From the NCBI RefSeq assembly GCF_013408535.1, contig NZ_JACBZA010000001.1, positions 1,116,001 through 1,180,000 of the forward strand: a DNA stretch of 64,000 nt, read 5' to 3'. The first letter of the stretch is position 1. Each line of letters starts with the position of its first letter. Shown piece by piece: positions 3,886-13,956 of this stretch. The translations under genes and the position numbers were made by a program. Source of the DNA: Actinopolymorpha cephalotaxi (GTDB lineage: Bacteria; Actinomycetota; Actinomycetes; Propionibacteriales; Actinopolymorphaceae). Below the pieces are notes generated by a model. The model made no database searches and was not told where the DNA came from. It worked only from the letters and a program-made list of their open reading frames with translations.

Positions 3886-5004
3886 ATGATCCGCATCCGC
3901 CTCACCGCCGACGACCTGGCCGGGGTCCGGTTCGCGACCCGGCCGGCGCCGCTGCTGGAGCTGAACACGGCCTTGCTGATGATGGGCCGGACCGACGGCG
4001 GGTTGCTGTTCGGCGCCTGGCGCCGGCGGATGGCGCGTTCCCTGCCCGCGACCGTGCGGCCGATCGGCGACCTGGTGCCGGCCGGGGCGGCGCCGGGATT
4101 CCTGGACGTGTACGACGACACGTTGCCGGCGGCGCTGGACCGGCCGCGGACCTGGCGGCCGGAGCTCGTCCGTGCCGAGCTGGAACGCGTGTACGCACCT
4201 GCCCCGGCGGCGAAGCCCGTGCCGACGTGGATCCGTGCGCTGCACCGGGGCGAGGCCGACGCGTGGGAGGTGTTGCGCCGGGGTCAGCATGCGGCGTTCG
4301 AGACTGCCATCCGTCCGGTGTGGGGTGTGGTGCAGGACCTGCACCACGGGGAGTTCACCAGGCACGCGGCGACGGTCGCCGAGCACGGGATCGGCGCCGC
4401 GCTTCGTGGCCTGGTGACGGGTGCGCGCCTGCGCGGCCAGGTGTGGGAGGTGGACGCATCGGTCGAGCAGGACGTCGACGTGGCCGGGCGTGGCCTGGTG
4501 CTGATGCCGACGTTCCACTGGACCGGCCACCCGCTGGTCTGCGACCTGCCGGCGCTGCCGGACCTGCCGGTCGTCCTCACCTATGCGGCCGGCCAGGGGA
4601 CACCGCTTCCCACGGACGGAGTGGGGCGGACCGGTCCCGCGGGCGATGCTCGCGCCGGGCTGGCCGAGGTGCTCGGACGGACCCGCTTCGGGCTGCTGCT
4701 CCTGCTCGCCGACGGGCACACCACCAGCGACCTCGCCCGGCTGCTCGGGGTCGGCAACGCCACGGTGTCCGCGCATACCGCGGCACTGCGCGGAGCCGGG
4801 CTGATCACCACCGTGCGAACCGGGCGTTCCGTGCTGCACCGGCGCACCGCCCTCGGCGACCTGCTGGTCCGCCGTCAGGGCCCGGGCACGGCTACGGGGC
4901 CACCTCCGAGGTCACCCGCCAGTACGCCGGACCGTCCGGCTGCCGGTGCAACTCCCAGCGCTGGGTGGGCCGGAAGCTCTCGGCGAAGCGCTGGTCGTGG
5001 CTGA
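3886..5004 (+). CDS. ArsR-like winged-helix transcriptional regulator
   Basis: Residues 1-240 form an actinobacterial helical domain seen in DUF5937-type regulators (MIRIRLTADDLAGVRFA start). The winged helix spans about 255-335, with LGRTRFGLLLLLADGHTTSDLARLLGVGNATVSAHTAALRGAGLITTVRTGRSVLHRRT as its helix-turn-helix and wing. No metal-binding cysteine pair is visible, so the signal is unknown. ATG 3886 has a GGGGGAAACG ribosome site. The last 35 or so residues are Pro/Ser/Ala-rich and run 113 bp into the 3' end of the convergent ABC-F gene, probably after loss of an earlier stop. It probably regulates itself or the divergent hydrolase. Confidence 0.82.
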   Translation: MIRIRLTADDLAGVRFATRPAPLLELNTALLMMGRTDGGLLFGAWRRRMARSLPATVRPIGDLVPAGAAPGFLDVYDDTLPAALDRPRTWRPELVRAELERVYAPAPAAKPVPTWIRALHRGEADAWEVLRRGQHAAFETAIRPVWGVVQDLHHGEFTRHAATVAEHGIGAALRGLVTGARLRGQVWEVDASVEQDVDVAGRGLVLMPTFHWTGHPLVCDLPALPDLPVVLTYAAGQGTPLPTDGVGRTGPAGDARAGLAEVLGRTRFGLLLLLADGHTTSDLARLLGVGNATVSAHTAALRGAGLITTVRTGRSVLHRRTALGDLLVRRQGPGTATGPPPRSPASTPDRPAAGATPSAGWAGSSRRSAGRG

Positions 5005-6736
5005 CCGCGATCAGCGTTCCGCCGTAGCCCGCGAGCGCCTCGTCCAGCACGTCCAGCGACTCGAAGTCCAGGTAGTTGGTCGGCTCGTCCAGCAACAGCA
5101 GGTCCGAACCTCCGTTGACCAGGCAGGCCAGCAGCACCCGGCGGATCTCACCCGCCGACATCGTGCCCAGTGGGCGGCGGATCTGGTCGGCGTCGAAGAG
5201 GTAGGAGTCCAGCAGGCGTTCGGCATCCTCCTCATAGATCGGCACCTGACTACGCAGGTAGTCCAGCGCGGGCAGTGTCAACGGAAGGTTGTCATGCACC
5301 TGCGGCAGGACGCCGGGGGCGCGGGCGAGCCGCACCGTGCCGGCGGCCGGGGTGAGTGCACCGCTCAGCAGCGAGAGCAAGGTGGACTTGCCGGTGCCGT
5401 TCTCCCCGGAGACGAGCACCCGTTCGCCGCCTCGTACGGACGCCGAGAACGCCTGCCACAGCGGGCCGTTCCCCCGATCGGCGACCAGATCGGTGACACC
5501 CACCATCACCTCCTCCGGCGACGGGTCACCGGAAAGACCGAGCACCAGCGGCGGTCGTTCCTCCGGTCGCTCCAGCCAGCGCGCCGAGGTCATCTCCCGC
5601 ATCAACCTGCGCTCGCGCGCCTTCGCCTTGCGGGCCACCTTCTTGGCGTAGCGGCGGGCCTTGTCGTTGTGGGTGCCGAGTTCGGTACGCAAGGCCTGGT
5701 TGGCGGTGCGTTCGATGTCCTGCTCCAGCCGGCGGCGGAACTTCTCCTGCGCCTCCAGGTCGGCGAGCAACCGGACGCGGCGCCTGCGCTTCTCCTCGCG
5801 GTAGGCGGTGTAGCCGCCGACGTAGAACTCCGCCCGGTCGGTGAGCACGTCGAGCTCGACGATCCGGTGCACCAGGTGATCGAGGAACGCGCGGTCGTGG
5901 GTGACGAAGACCACCACTCCGCGATAGCCGCTGAGGTACTCGCCCAGCCAGGCGAGGCCGGTGGCGTCGAGGTGGTTGGTGGGTTCGTCCAGCAGCAGGA
6001 TGCCGGGTTCCTCCAGCAACAGCCGGGCGAGCAGGACGCGGGCCTGTTCGCCACCGCTGACGTCGCCCAGGCTGCGGTCCAGGTCGAGGTCGGCGACCCC
6101 AAGCCGGTGGCGTACCTCGTCCGCCCGTGCCTGTGCCTGCCAGCCACCCAGGAGGGCGAACCGGTCCTGTGCCGCGGCGTACTCCGCCAGCACGTCGTCG
6201 CCTGCACCTCCGGCGCCGGCACCGTCGGCACCCTCGGCACGGTCGGCATCCTCGGCACGGTCGGCATCCTCGGCGCCGGCCGACATCGCCGCCTCCAGCG
6301 CCCGCATCCGGGTGCTGAGTTCGGCGATCTCACCGAGTCCGGCGTCCAGGAACGCGCGGATCGTCGTGGTGGTGTCGGCGACCTGGGCGTCGAGGTATCC
6401 CACCCGGTCGTGCGGGCCGTACCGCACCGACCCGCGGTCGGCATGGTCCCGGCCGGCGAGGATGCGGAGCAAGGTGGACTTGCCGGCGCCGTTCTCGCCG
6501 ACCAGGCCGAGGCGTTCGCCCGCGTGGGCGACCAGGCTCACGTCGGCGAACAACGGCTCGCCGTCGTACGTCTTCGTCAGACCGGACGCGGTGAGGACGG
6601 GCGCCGCCGAGGTGCCGGAGGGAGAGCCGGCGGACGCGCCAGAAGCAGTGCCGGAAGCAGCGACAGAAGCAGCGGCAGAGGCAGTGCCAGAAGCAGAAGG
6701 TGCAGCGGAAACGGAGAAGGCAGTGGGGGCAGGCAT
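4892..6736 (-). CDS. ABC-F family ATPase (ribosome protection / translation factor type)
   Basis: A 614-residue soluble protein with two ABC domains in one chain and no membrane segment. Walker A motifs are GENGAGKST (from residue 80) and GENGTGKST. The signatures are VSGGEQ and MSAGE. Both domains carry an LLLDEPTN-type Walker B, and the interdomain linker is basic and helical (KVARKAKARERRLMRE). This is the ABC-F architecture, whose members act on the ribosomal E site. Some give macrolide, lincosamide or pleuromutilin resistance, while others are translation factors. The first 45 residues are a low-complexity Ser/Ala/Gly run, so the true start may be further in. The internal Asp/Ala repeat is described separately. 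The intergenic region upstream holds palindromes. Confidence 0.88.
   Translation of the reverse strand: MPAPTAFSVSAAPSASGTASAAASVAASGTASGASAGSPSGTSAAPVLTASGLTKTYDGEPLFADVSLVAHAGERLGLVGENGAGKSTLLRILAGRDHADRGSVRYGPHDRVGYLDAQVADTTTTIRAFLDAGLGEIAELSTRMRALEAAMSAGAEDADRAEDADRAEGADGAGAGGAGDDVLAEYAAAQDRFALLGGWQAQARADEVRHRLGVADLDLDRSLGDVSGGEQARVLLARLLLEEPGILLLDEPTNHLDATGLAWLGEYLSGYRGVVVFVTHDRAFLDHLVHRIVELDVLTDRAEFYVGGYTAYREEKRRRRVRLLADLEAQEKFRRRLEQDIERTANQALRTELGTHNDKARRYAKKVARKAKARERRLMREMTSARWLERPEERPPLVLGLSGDPSPEEVMVGVTDLVADRGNGPLWQAFSASVRGGERVLVSGENGTGKSTLLSLLSGALTPAAGTVRLARAPGVLPQVHDNLPLTLPALDYLRSQVPIYEEDAERLLDSYLFDADQIRRPLGTMSAGEIRRVLLACLVNGGSDLLLLDEPTNYLDFESLDVLDEALAGYGGTLIAVSHDQRFAESFRPTQRWELHRQPDGPAYWRVTSEVAP
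6218..6271 (+). repeat. Three 18-bp tandem units inside the ABC-F gene
   Basis: Two identical 18-nt units (6236-6253 and 6254-6271) and one degenerate unit (6218-6235) lie in tandem. On the coding strand they give Ala-Glu-Asp-Ala-Asp-Arg repeats between the first ABC domain's helical insert and its signature motif. Unit length is a multiple of three, so copy-number change would keep the frame. Confidence 0.85.
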
Positions 6737-7018
6737 GGGATCCCGGGGAACTCGAAGGGAGCCGCGGGTGGATCACCACGCGGCGCAGGGAATTGAGTTC
6801 CGATCAGCTGCCCACGGACCAGACCCTAACCAACTCCCGGCGTCCGGCTCAACCGGTATCCCGTCGCACCCCGAGTAACAGGCGTGCCCGCTGACCGGGC
6901 GGGTGGCACGCGGCGAGCCGTTGTTCAGCCGCTCCGCCGTGGATGCCCGGCGGGCTGAAGTGTGAAGCACTCGGGTGGCCAGAACCGCCGTACCGCTTCA
7001 CGCTTCTGCTGCGAGCGG

Positions 7019-7034
7019 CTCCTTCGCGAAGGAG
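7019..7034. repeat. 16-bp perfect palindrome
   Basis: CTCCTTCG followed by its exact complement CGAAGGAG with no spacer. No T tract follows on either side, so an operator is more likely than a terminator. Confidence 0.6.
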
Positions 7035-7127
7035 TGTTAAGACCCGCGGTGGTCCGGGCAACCTCTCGCTTTCACGCTTGTCCGGCTGCCGAGTGGCCGG
7101 TCGCCCATCGCGAGCGCGGAGGTCGGG

Positions 7128-7149
7128 GGATTCTTCCGCGGAAGAATCC
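7128..7149. repeat. 22-bp perfect palindrome
   Basis: The arms GGATTCTTCCG and CGGAAGAATCC meet without a spacer, giving perfect two-fold symmetry over 22 bp. It lies 390 bp upstream of the ABC-F start and about 190 bp upstream of the cimA leader. No run of T follows. A dimeric regulator binding site is the simplest reading. Confidence 0.65.
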
Positions 7150-7291
7150 AGGCGGCTGCCCGGACGGCATCGTTCAGCCTGTACCCACCTCGCATCCGCG
7201 GACCGGACCGGCATCCCGGGCGCGGCCCGGGGTACGGACGGGGGCGCGGCCGGACGCCCCCTGGACGGCCCGGAACCGGCCGGGAACGGTG

Positions 7292-7327
7292 GGTCACGTG
7301 ACCGGACGCACGTGGGTGTGCCACACT
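7292..7327 (+). promoter_or_regulatory. cimA leader promoter with overlapping palindrome
   Basis: GTGACC at 7298-7303 (-35 like) and CACACT at 7322-7327 (-10 like) are 18 bp apart. The -10 ends 7 nt before the leader-peptide ATG, so the transcript would be leaderless. A 12-bp palindrome, GGTCACGTGACC (7292-7303), covers the -35 and could be an operator. Confidence 0.45.
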
Positions 7328-7334
7328 GGCCCGC

Positions 7335-7367
7335 ATGGTCCCCTCCTACACCGTGATCATTACCTAG
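7335..7367 (+). CDS. Putative ten-residue leader peptide of cimA (MVPSYTVIIT)
   Basis: ATG 7335 to TAG 7365-7367 encodes ten residues, including the run Val-Ile-Ile. It lies 34 bp before a strong intrinsic terminator and about 170 bp before cimA, an isoleucine-pathway gene. Leader peptides rich in the regulated amino acids, followed by a terminator, are the classical sign of ribosome-mediated attenuation of ilv/leu genes. There is no ribosome site, but a -10-like box 7 nt upstream suggests leaderless translation. The reading is an inference from position and codon content. The ORF is too short for codon statistics. Confidence 0.55.
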   Translation: MVPSYTVIIT

Positions 7368-7427
7368 GCGCGCCGGACACCACCCCGTCCCGCGCGCAGA
7401 CCTCTCGCACCCCGCGAGAGGTTTTTT
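7368..7427 (+). terminator. Attenuator: pause-type hairpin plus intrinsic terminator before cimA
   Basis: The first hairpin (7368-7397) pairs GCGCGC and GGAC with GTCC and GCGCGC around an 8-nt loop, with one C-C mismatch. The second (7401-7421) pairs CCTCTCGC with GCGAGAGG and is followed at once by six T (7422-7427). The terminator lies upstream of cimA with no complete gene before it except the leader ORF, as expected for an attenuator. An explicit antiterminator pairing is not evident by eye. Confidence 0.75.
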
Positions 7428-7535
7428 GTTTGTCCGGCCCGGTCACCACCCCTCGACCGAGCCCCGGGCCGACGAGAGCCCCACCCGAACCCCCAACCTG
7501 AGTTCGATTTTCCGGTTCGCAAGGAGCGTCCCCCG

Positions 7536-9152
7536 ATGACCGACTTCCACGTGTACGACACGACGCTGCGCGACGGGGCCCAGCAAGAGGGTCTCAGCCT
7601 GTCGGTCGAGGACAAGCTGGCGATTGCCCGCCACCTCGACGAGCTCGGGGTCGGCTACATCGAGGGCGGGTGGCCCGGCGCCAACCCGAAGGACACGGAG
7701 TTCTTCCGCCGGGCGGGGGAGGAGCTCCGGCTCGGCCGGGCCACGCTCGCGGCGTTCGGCGCCACCTGCCGGGCCGGGGTGGCGGCCGCCGACGACCCGC
7801 TGGTCCGCGCGCTGCGCGACTCCGGTGCCGGCGTCGTCACGCTGGTGGCCAAGAGCCACGACCGGCACGTCGAGCACGCGCTGCGCACCACGCTGGCGGA
7901 GAACCTCGCGATGGTCCGCGACACCGTGGAGTTCCTGCGGGCCGGCGGTCAGCGCGTCTTCCTGGACGCCGAGCACTTCTTCGACGGCTACCGCGACAAT
8001 CCGGCGTACGCGCTGGAGGTGGTGCGTGTGGCAGCGGAGGCGGGCGCGGACGTGGTGGCGCTGTGCGACACCAACGGCGGCATGCTGCCCGACCAGGTGA
8101 GCGAGGTGGTGGCGAACGTGCTCGCCGGCACCGGCGCCCGGGTGGGCATCCACTGCCACAACGACGCGGGCTGCGCGGTGGCCAACACGATCGCCGCCGT
8201 CGACGCCGGCGCCACCCACGTGCAGGGAACGCTCAACGGCTACGGCGAACGCACCGGCAACGCCGACCTGGTGACCATCGTCGCCAACCTTCAGCTCAAG
8301 CGGGGCATGAGTCTGGTGCCCACGGCCGCGCTGGCGGAGGCGACCCGGATCGCCCACGCGGTCGCCGAGCTCACCAACATCCCGCCGTACTCCCGGCAGC
8401 CCTACGTCGGCGCGTCGGCCTTTGCCCACAAGGCGGGCCTGCACGCCAGCGCGATCAAGGTGGACCCGAACCTCTACCAGCACGCCGATCCGGCCGACGT
8501 CGGCAACGACATGCGGCTGCTGGTGTCGGACATGGCCGGCCGGGCGAGCATCGAGCTGAAGGGCCGCGAGCTGGGCTACGACCTCGCCGGCGACCGCGCA
8601 CTGGTCACCCGGATCACCGACCGGGTGAAGGCGATGGAGGCGCGCGGCTACACCTTCGAGGCGGCCGACGCGTCGTTCGAGCTGCTCCTGATCGAGGAGG
8701 TCGAGGGCGTACGCCCGACGTTCTTCGAGGTGGAGTCCTGGCGGGTGCTCACCGACTCCCAGCCCGGCGAGGAGGCGCTGTCGGAGGCGACCGTGAAGCT
8801 GCGGGCCGGCGGTGAACGCACGATCGTCACCGGCGAGGGCAACGGCCCGGTCAACGCGCTGGACGCGGCGCTGCGCGGGGCGATCGGGCAGGCGCACCCG
8901 GTGGTGGACAAGCTCGACCTGATCGACTACCGCGTCCGCATCCTCGACGCCGGCCACGGGACCGACGCCGTGATCAGAGTTCTGATCCAGCTGTCCGACG
9001 GCGAGGAGTCGTGGGAGACCGTCGGGGTCGGGCACAACATCATCGAGGCGTCCTGGGAGGCGCTGGTGGACGGTGTGACGTACGCCCTGGTGCGGGCGGG
9101 CGTCGAGCCGGCGCCCGCCGCCGAGCCCGCTCCCGCGGTCGGGCAGGTCTAG
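7536..9152 (+). CDS. cimA: (R)-citramalate synthase
   Basis: A 538-residue DRE-TIM metallolyase that condenses acetyl-CoA with pyruvate to citramalate, giving a threonine-independent route to 2-oxobutyrate and isoleucine. DTTLRDGAQQEG (residues 8-19) holds the metal-binding Asp, GIHCHNDAG (around residue 205) gives the metal-binding His pair, and LNGYGERTGNAD follows. The C-terminal 150 residues match the LeuA allosteric dimer domain. The sequence is closer to CimA than to LeuA in YIEGGWPGANPKD. AAGGAG precedes ATG 7536 by a normal distance. Regulation by the upstream leader is likely. Its stop overlaps the stop of the convergent gene at 9149. Confidence 0.9.
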   Translation: MTDFHVYDTTLRDGAQQEGLSLSVEDKLAIARHLDELGVGYIEGGWPGANPKDTEFFRRAGEELRLGRATLAAFGATCRAGVAAADDPLVRALRDSGAGVVTLVAKSHDRHVEHALRTTLAENLAMVRDTVEFLRAGGQRVFLDAEHFFDGYRDNPAYALEVVRVAAEAGADVVALCDTNGGMLPDQVSEVVANVLAGTGARVGIHCHNDAGCAVANTIAAVDAGATHVQGTLNGYGERTGNADLVTIVANLQLKRGMSLVPTAALAEATRIAHAVAELTNIPPYSRQPYVGASAFAHKAGLHASAIKVDPNLYQHADPADVGNDMRLLVSDMAGRASIELKGRELGYDLAGDRALVTRITDRVKAMEARGYTFEAADASFELLLIEEVEGVRPTFFEVESWRVLTDSQPGEEALSEATVKLRAGGERTIVTGEGNGPVNALDAALRGAIGQAHPVVDKLDLIDYRVRILDAGHGTDAVIRVLIQLSDGEESWETVGVGHNIIEASWEALVDGVTYALVRAGVEPAPAAEPAPAVGQV

Positions 9153-13757: not shown

Positions 13758-13829
13758 TGGGGTATGGGGTAATTGGCAGCCCGACTGGTTCTGGTCCAGT
13801 TAGTCTAGGTTCGAGTCCTAGTACCCCAG
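13758..13829 (+). tRNA. tRNA-Gln (anticodon CTG)
   Basis: The acceptor stem TGGGGTA/TACCCCA and anticodon stem ACTGG/CCAGT are perfect. The loop TTCTGGT gives anticodon CTG, and the T arm contains GGTTCGAGTCC. The length is 72 nt with discriminator G and no encoded CCA. It pairs in context with gltX and the following tRNA-Glu. Confidence 0.95.
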
Positions 13830-13877
13830 CGAGTGAGTTGATGAGGCTCTTGCTAGAGTTCAGCTCGCTTCTTCGAA

Positions 13878-13950
13878 GGCCCCGTTGTGTAGCGGCCTAG
13901 CACGCCGCCCTCTCAAGGCGGTAGCGCCGGTTCGAATCCGGTCGGGGCTA
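13878..13950 (+). tRNA. tRNA-Glu (anticodon CTC)
   Basis: The acceptor stem GGCCCCG pairs with CGGGGCT (one G-U), the anticodon stem is CCGCC/GGCGG, and the loop CTCTCAA gives anticodon CTC. The T arm CCGGTTCGAATCCGG is canonical. The length is 73 nt with discriminator A. It lies 48 bp after tRNA-Gln. Confidence 0.96.
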
Positions 13951-13956
13951 CAACGC

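Follow-up and report, generated by a model that had tools for sequence, protein, structure and literature searches.

The locus described here raises the question of how cimA, the gene for (R)-citramalate synthase, might be controlled by a short leader in which an open reading frame (ORF) with isoleucine codons is followed by two hairpins that do not overlap, and what in such a leader could oppose termination. The window, i.e. the whole 64,000-nucleotide stretch of Actinopolymorpha cephalotaxi DNA that was analysed, belongs to a genome of one contig (6.86 Mb) and carries cimA at 7536..9152 on the forward strand, identified by the equivalog model TIGR00977 (624 bits, cut-off 450). The nearest named records of the encoded protein come from Nocardioidaceae, Pedococcus and Kribbella. 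Downstream of cimA lie a fumarylacetoacetate-hydrolase-like gene and then gltX, behind which genes for tRNA-Gln(CTG) and tRNA-Glu(CTC) are found at 13758-13951 (+). The upstream neighbour (4892-6736) encodes a two-domain ABC ATPase (PF00005 twice), ABC-F-like by eye; as it is divergent, on the reverse strand, the terminator discussed below serves no same-strand upstream gene.

An earlier note on this DNA had described a leader ORF, MVPSYTVIIT, at 7335..7367, a hairpin at 7368..7397 and a terminator at 7401..7427, all on the forward strand, and these coordinates are exact in the sequence. The ORF, whose reading frame was compared across leaders, runs from ATG (7335) through GTC CCC TCC TAC ACC GTG ATC ATT ACC to TAG (7365-7367), and codon comparison across leaders marks the ATC ATT pair (Ile-Ile, 7356..7361) as its sensor codons. 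The hairpin, called H1 here, adjoins the stop codon; in its outer stem GCGCGC (7368-7373) pairs with GCGCGC (7392-7397), and a C7374/C7391 mismatch is followed by pairing of GGAC (7375-7378) with GTCC (7387-7390). An AGA linker (7398..7400), able to pair with the U-tract, leads into the intrinsic terminator, in which CCTCTCGC (7401-7408) and GCGAGAGG (7414-7421) form an 8-bp stem around the loop ACCCC, followed by TTTTTT (7422-7427). A terminator scan of 6850-7600 returned this single site, with 0.4 expected, and the fold of 7335-7427, in which H1 and the terminator appear side by side, reaches -40 kcal/mol compared to -21.4 (sd 2.7) in 200 dinucleotide shuffles (z -6.9). An AAGGAG at 7521..7526 (+) is, by eye, the likely Shine-Dalgarno box of cimA.

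The earlier note had also placed a promoter-like pair so that transcription would start at the leader ATG. This pair consists of a weak -35-like GTGACC (7298..7303, +), seen by eye, and, 18 nt further on, a -10-like CACACT (7322..7327, +) that ends 7 nt before the ATG, consistent with a leaderless start. The -10-like box gains support from comparison, lying 5-10 nt before the start in 116 leaders and 6-8 nt before it in 102 of them (the start itself having been chosen by the box), whereas a generic promoter scan of the leader region gave nothing at threshold.

CimA is present in 8 of 8 genomes of the family and 177 of 196 of the order, and all of the 30 loci fetched from the order, which were the best-scoring 30, carry the element before cimA. 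Their common layout is an ORF that ends in one or more Ile codons, a single further residue and the stop, followed by GCGCG...CGCGC, by ACCTC...GAGGT with its T-run, and by cimA. In the alignment of these loci 93.6% of cells pair and 8 of the 20 pairs vary on both sides, giving a covariation score of 0.281 compared to 0.133 for shuffled alignments and at most 0.065 for slid structures, and by this comparison H1 and the terminator covary; the count of pairs changing on both sides was, taken alone, matched by 171 of 500 shuffles. The leader element before cimA is thus not a chance arrangement.

The covariance search of related leaders that the earlier note had proposed was run with R1, a covariance model of the cimA-type leader that includes the Ile columns, and its expectation of a leader ORF conserved in relatives was borne out in 30 of 30 order loci. 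R1 finds only one place in the A. cephalotaxi genome at E<=10. Across the class it has matches in 226 of 394 genomes, from 97 of 138 genera, and 310 of the 394 encode CimA; both occur in 221 genomes, R1 only in 5, cimA only in 89 and neither in 79. Among loci selected by the CimA protein alone, 34 of 80 match at E<3e-7, two of them (L243, L245) from Acidimicrobiia by record title. The 89 of 310 cimA genomes with no R1 match count against the model proposed below, though 39 of them fall in one family (f29) with small genomes and the other misses are partly filter losses, because loci from Amycolatopsis, Kutzneria, Lentzea and Pseudonocardia match when searched alone. In a freshwater-type group of actinobacterial loci (L192-L203, L212), which we infer to represent f29, cimA begins at the end of the preceding gene, an ilvE-like gene by eye, and there is no space for a leader. 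Two Nitriliruptoria loci (L229, L231) seem, by eye, to combine an Ile-rich leader with a long hairpin before cimA and to lack a T-run terminator, and an output other than a terminator may be used there. One genome (G430) has two near-equal R1 matches (L052, L145; G430:C24:108911-108984 and G430:C3:143-216), the second lying at a contig end before a cimA start; CimA was counted once in this genome.

Considering the question of what the leader senses, the start of each leader was picked from the -10-like box and a start codon alone, blind to codon content. Three of the 119 cimA leaders (L035, L111, L258), in which H1 or the terminator had been mis-assigned by the automatic search, and one of 26 non-cimA leaders (L112) were left out before counting. 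The frame chosen in this way holds at least one Ile codon in 111 of 116 leaders and at least two in 103. The Ile columns held by R1 inflate such counts, and a separate count was therefore made on 56 protein-selected leaders, where at least one Ile codon is found in 52 and at least two in 51, with a mean of 2.38 Ile codons per leader in the chosen frame compared to 0.04 and 0.18 in the other two. The four exceptions are Kribbella-like loci (L028, L032, L033, L183), in which the next ATG yields peptides like MKNYRVIIT (by eye); these and L134, having no Ile codon in the box-chosen frame, are omitted from the codon and footprint counts on 111 leaders. The trp-type feature of a translated leader ORF with end-product codons is thus present in 52 of the 56, translation being predicted.

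By codon comparison, the conserved sensor residue is isoleucine. It makes up 24% of residues over the 111 leaders, with valine at 5%, and the 52 protein-selected leaders contain 133 Ile and 26 Val codons out of 508; valine, which the earlier note had named as a second end product sensed before cimA, was dropped on these counts. ATT accounts for 57 of the 133 Ile codons compared to 15 of 836 in the cimA genes at these protein-selected loci, and over the cimA elements generally this rare codon makes up about half of leader Ile codons and about 3% of those in the genes; CTT and GTA are, by eye, frequent in the leaders of other genes described next. The Ile codons stand 5-6 nt from H1 in 48 of the 52 leaders. 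The leader stop codon lies either 1-4 nt before H1 or 10-23 nt past its first base, so that in both layouts a terminating ribosome would cover the 5' arm of H1. We set aside a second ORF that begins within the U-tract (in some loci as GGAGGTTTTTTCATG), because its frame relative to cimA is not fixed (by eye).

Related leaders occur before other branched-chain genes. The further places from 27 genomes with several R1 matches were fetched and precede ilvB, leuS and, once, leuA, alongside three more cimA loci (L147, L155, L167) and three poor or chance matches (L173 at a contig end, L178 before a release-factor-like gene, and L179). The matches before ilvB, leuS and leuA are weaker than those of the cimA type, and 26 of the 33 non-cimA loci entered passed the helix thresholds. 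Six downstream proteins were scanned (two IlvB, two LeuS, one LeuA, and one, that of L107, with no NCBIfam match), the others being named by eye from translations. Peptides before leuS end in LLLT or LLLP, those before ilvB in LVLH, LVVT or LVIP, and that before leuA in LLLIE; at the level of sequence, the sensor codons follow the downstream gene, with Leu/Val codons before leuS, ilvB and leuA.

The conserved ORF, its Ile frame and the change of codons with the downstream gene together point to a ribosome-sensing attenuator for isoleucine and not valine. Attenuation of cimA by isoleucine supply, as the earlier note had suggested, is strongly supported by comparison (the ORF, Ile codons at a fixed distance, covarying hairpins and gene-dependent codons), and we consider it likely that the element is an isoleucine-responsive, ribosome-dependent transcription attenuator in which H1 opposes termination. 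RNA polymerase would start at or beside the leader ATG and a ribosome would load on the leaderless transcript. With ample Ile-tRNA, it would pass ATC-ATT and reach the stop codon, where its footprint would cover the H1 5' arm, H1 would be blocked from forming, the terminator at 7401-7427 would fold and cimA would be off. When Ile-tRNA is scarce, the ribosome would halt on the Ile codons just upstream of H1, leaving it free to fold, and H1 itself, with no separate 2:3 helix, would oppose closing of the abutting terminator, leaving cimA on. We infer the start site, the isoleucine response and the opposition of H1 to termination; since starvation should raise cimA, the presence of H1 should mean read-through, which makes H1 probably the antiterminator.

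Equilibrium folding of full leaders under a ribosome mask was abandoned, as the terminator won at every codon even in five E. coli controls, and the mask was instead moved along each leader with the RNA folded up to just before the terminator 3' arm. In this model, at a mask edge of +12, a ribosome whose A site holds the first codon of the Ile run leaves the H1 5' arm paired in 102 of 111 leaders, and one at the stop codon does so in 2 of 111. The result depends on the chosen edge, H1 being free on the first codon in 109 leaders at +9, 71 at +13 and 30 at +15.

A classical trp-type attenuator would require stalling to free a 2:3 region that takes up the terminator 5' arm, H1 serving as a protective or pause hairpin. 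Leader ORF, hairpin and terminator do stand in the textbook order, an intrinsic terminator between leader and first gene is supported by scan, fold and covariation, and the accessible text of PMC1262725 calls Streptomyces leuS leaders classical. The helix competing for the terminator 5' arm is what fails to appear. In the E. coli trp, thr, leu, ilv and his controls this arm is 0.8-1.0 paired at some sensor codons, with variation within the sensor run (e.g. 0.35-0.81 in his), and 0.02-0.41 paired with the ribosome at the stop codon, whereas a ribosome on the first Ile codon of the 111 cimA leaders leaves it paired at a median of 0.06 and above 0.5 in only one. None of the 111 cimA leaders, and one of 25 leaders of other genes, shows more upstream complementarity to the arm than shuffles do; in the E. 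coli controls this complementarity gives z of -2.0 (trp), -4.2 (thr), -2.1 (leu), -2.2 (his) and -0.9 (ilv). Upstream pairing with the terminator 3' arm, at p<=0.05 in 7 of 111, is about at chance level. A trp-type mechanism is accordingly improbable. The earlier note had rightly been puzzled by hairpins that do not overlap and offer no textbook antiterminator; of the two ways out that it gave, a pairing located elsewhere finds no support in these searches, and a mechanism unlike the textbook case fits the folding, in which H1 toggles and no 2:3-type pairing arises. With the ribosome at the stop, RNA freed upstream pairs the terminator 5' arm above 0.5 in 27 of 111 leaders (0.60 in the window), and the reverse logic that this would imply is not general, being conceivable, within the folding model, for the window alone.

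H1 might instead extend outward and take the basal nucleotides of the terminator, as in the boundary-sharing 'fast attenuator' proposed for C. glutamicum ilvBNC. H1 and terminator abut, H1 reaches the terminator's first C in several of the ilvB leaders, and a weak extension of H1 by T7365-A7398 or by a G.A/A.G step is, by eye, conceivable in the window. Contiguous outward extension gives no pair in 109 of 116 cimA leaders, one pair in 7, and none in 20 of 25 leaders of other genes, and the shared boundary nucleotides that define the Corynebacterium ilvB-II kind are in this sense lacking; the explanation is unlikely, if a little less so than the trp-type one. If H1 were only a pause hairpin, letting the ribosome catch up so that ribosome-polymerase coupling and not RNA structure decided the outcome, the simple build of H1, a GC-rich stem that varies in length and lacks a conserved loop, would be unsurprising, but uncoupling of stalled ribosomes would make termination more likely under starvation, opposite to what a biosynthetic gene needs, and the fixed distance between sensor and H1 would be unneeded; we regard this as highly improbable. 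An untranslated riboswitch, T-box or protein-binding leader, which a conserved structured leader before a biosynthetic gene could suggest, is scarcely credible, as no Rfam family, T-box included, matches at its curated gathering threshold (best sub-threshold match 23.7 bits, cut-off 58.8), one frame of the conserved unpaired segment yields Ile codons, and there is no conserved loop core.

Returning to H1 as the probable antiterminator, the base pairs of H1 and those of the terminator can coexist, and pairing therefore does not account for the inhibitory step. H1 is 23 to 77 nt long, and 3 nt separate it from the first C of the terminator in 93 of 119 leaders, while extension of the terminator into the U-tract leaves 0 or 1 nt to H1 in 112 of 116. 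That the length of H1 varies when the gap is near constant suggests a steric block by H1 in the RNA exit channel. The short gap was rejected as a diagnostic, as 32 of 43 other terminator-like sites have an upstream paired base 0-3 nt away (some of these sites may be leader elements missed by the search) and the gap to upstream pairing is also 1 nt in E. coli trp and ilv. A more far-reaching proposal, which we put forward only tentatively and rather doubt, is a family of attenuators without antiterminator pairing before cimA, ilvB, leuS and leuA of actinobacteria, retargeted by exchange of sensor codons, in which the stalled ribosome would permit H1, and the near-linkerless H1 would physically keep the basal pairs of the terminator open in the exit channel of RNA polymerase.

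Among described systems, the cimA leader most resembles the Corynebacterium ilvBNC leader (ilvB-II motif; accessible text of PMC10272879, PMC11109978 and PMC11857589) and that of M. tuberculosis ilvB1 (accessible text of PMC13236596). These published leaders, according to the sources, have a (near-)leaderless ORF, as is predicted for the cimA leader; they share with it branched-chain codons just before a terminator-abutting hairpin, a feature of the actinobacterial ilvB/leuS kind, and a proposal that a ribosome at the stop codon masks the antiterminator hairpin. The present leader differs in its gene, cimA, and in its Ile codons. In Corynebacterium, as far as the same texts go, a base-paired antiterminator shares terminator nucleotides, and none was found in the cimA leaders; the logic of H1 as antiterminator is that proposed for M. 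tuberculosis in the accessible part of PMC13236596. There, changing LVVI to AAAA in the ilvB leader abolishes induction, and in C. glutamicum replacing three Val codons with Ala abolishes the Val response (work cited in the text available from PMC11857589). Two other results, that altered codons in the ilvB leader of S. coelicolor were without effect (PMC1262725, in part) and that loss of the leader start codon in C. glutamicum lowered ilvB expression by 80% (PMC11857589, in part), do not fit a bare 'H1 free = on' rule. The Streptomyces leuS and ilvB leaders (PMC1262725 and PMC8079986, accessible text) have the same layout and are found by the cimA-leader model, and differ in their Leu or Leu/Val codons and, for leuS, in an H1 base of CCGCG. 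A leuA LEU element is described in the accessible part of PMC1262725 as a pseudoknot with its base stem on the Shine-Dalgarno box. As in E. coli trp, thr, leu, ilv and his, the position of a ribosome on end-product codons would decide termination; in those attenuators stalling sequesters the terminator 5' arm, whereas in the cimA leaders it would leave the arm free and permit H1, and the cimA leader differs from the trp type in missing the textbook antiterminator.

No cimA or citramalate leader is described in the literature titles and abstract starts searched, subscription journals and supplements lying outside this scope. The terms cimA and citramalate are absent from PMC8079986, PMC11109978, PMC8632094, PMC10272879 and PMC6429828, cimA is absent from the accessible text of PMC13236596, and a cimA leader goes unmentioned in that of PMC1262725. 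The cimA leader is apparently an unreported and widely spread member of the actinobacterial branched-chain leader kind. If true, the citramalate route to isoleucine would be under ribosome-sensing control in a large part of Actinomycetia, through a gene unnamed in the accessible parts of the published leader reports examined. More than 100 aligned leaders, in which H1 and not an antiterminator pairing would respond to the ribosome, make the antiterminator-less working of actinobacterial branched-chain leaders testable at the H1/terminator junction.

Some leaders of other genes deserve separate mention. The ilvB of A. cephalotaxi itself (L266, G000:C1:1107004-1108689), some 16 kb before cimA, is preceded by a leader of like layout with Ile-Leu-Val-Leu codons, reading MRPQILVLHSRAG (by eye, below the R1 threshold). 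The same genome has, outside the window, a pair of neighbouring leuS genes (L272-L275, G000:C1:3127997-3134118), each with its own Leu-type leader and terminator; the peptides are MRTALLLIEPR and MSVVLLLTGPR (again by eye and below the R1 threshold). Another leader, L168, has a peptide identical to S. lividans LeuL2 as given in the accessible part of PMC8079986. Finally, L107 (G365:C37:281433-283814) is an Ile-type leader, MFALVIIM, before a protein of 107 residues that matches an ACT domain weakly, below threshold, and is perhaps a lone regulatory subunit.
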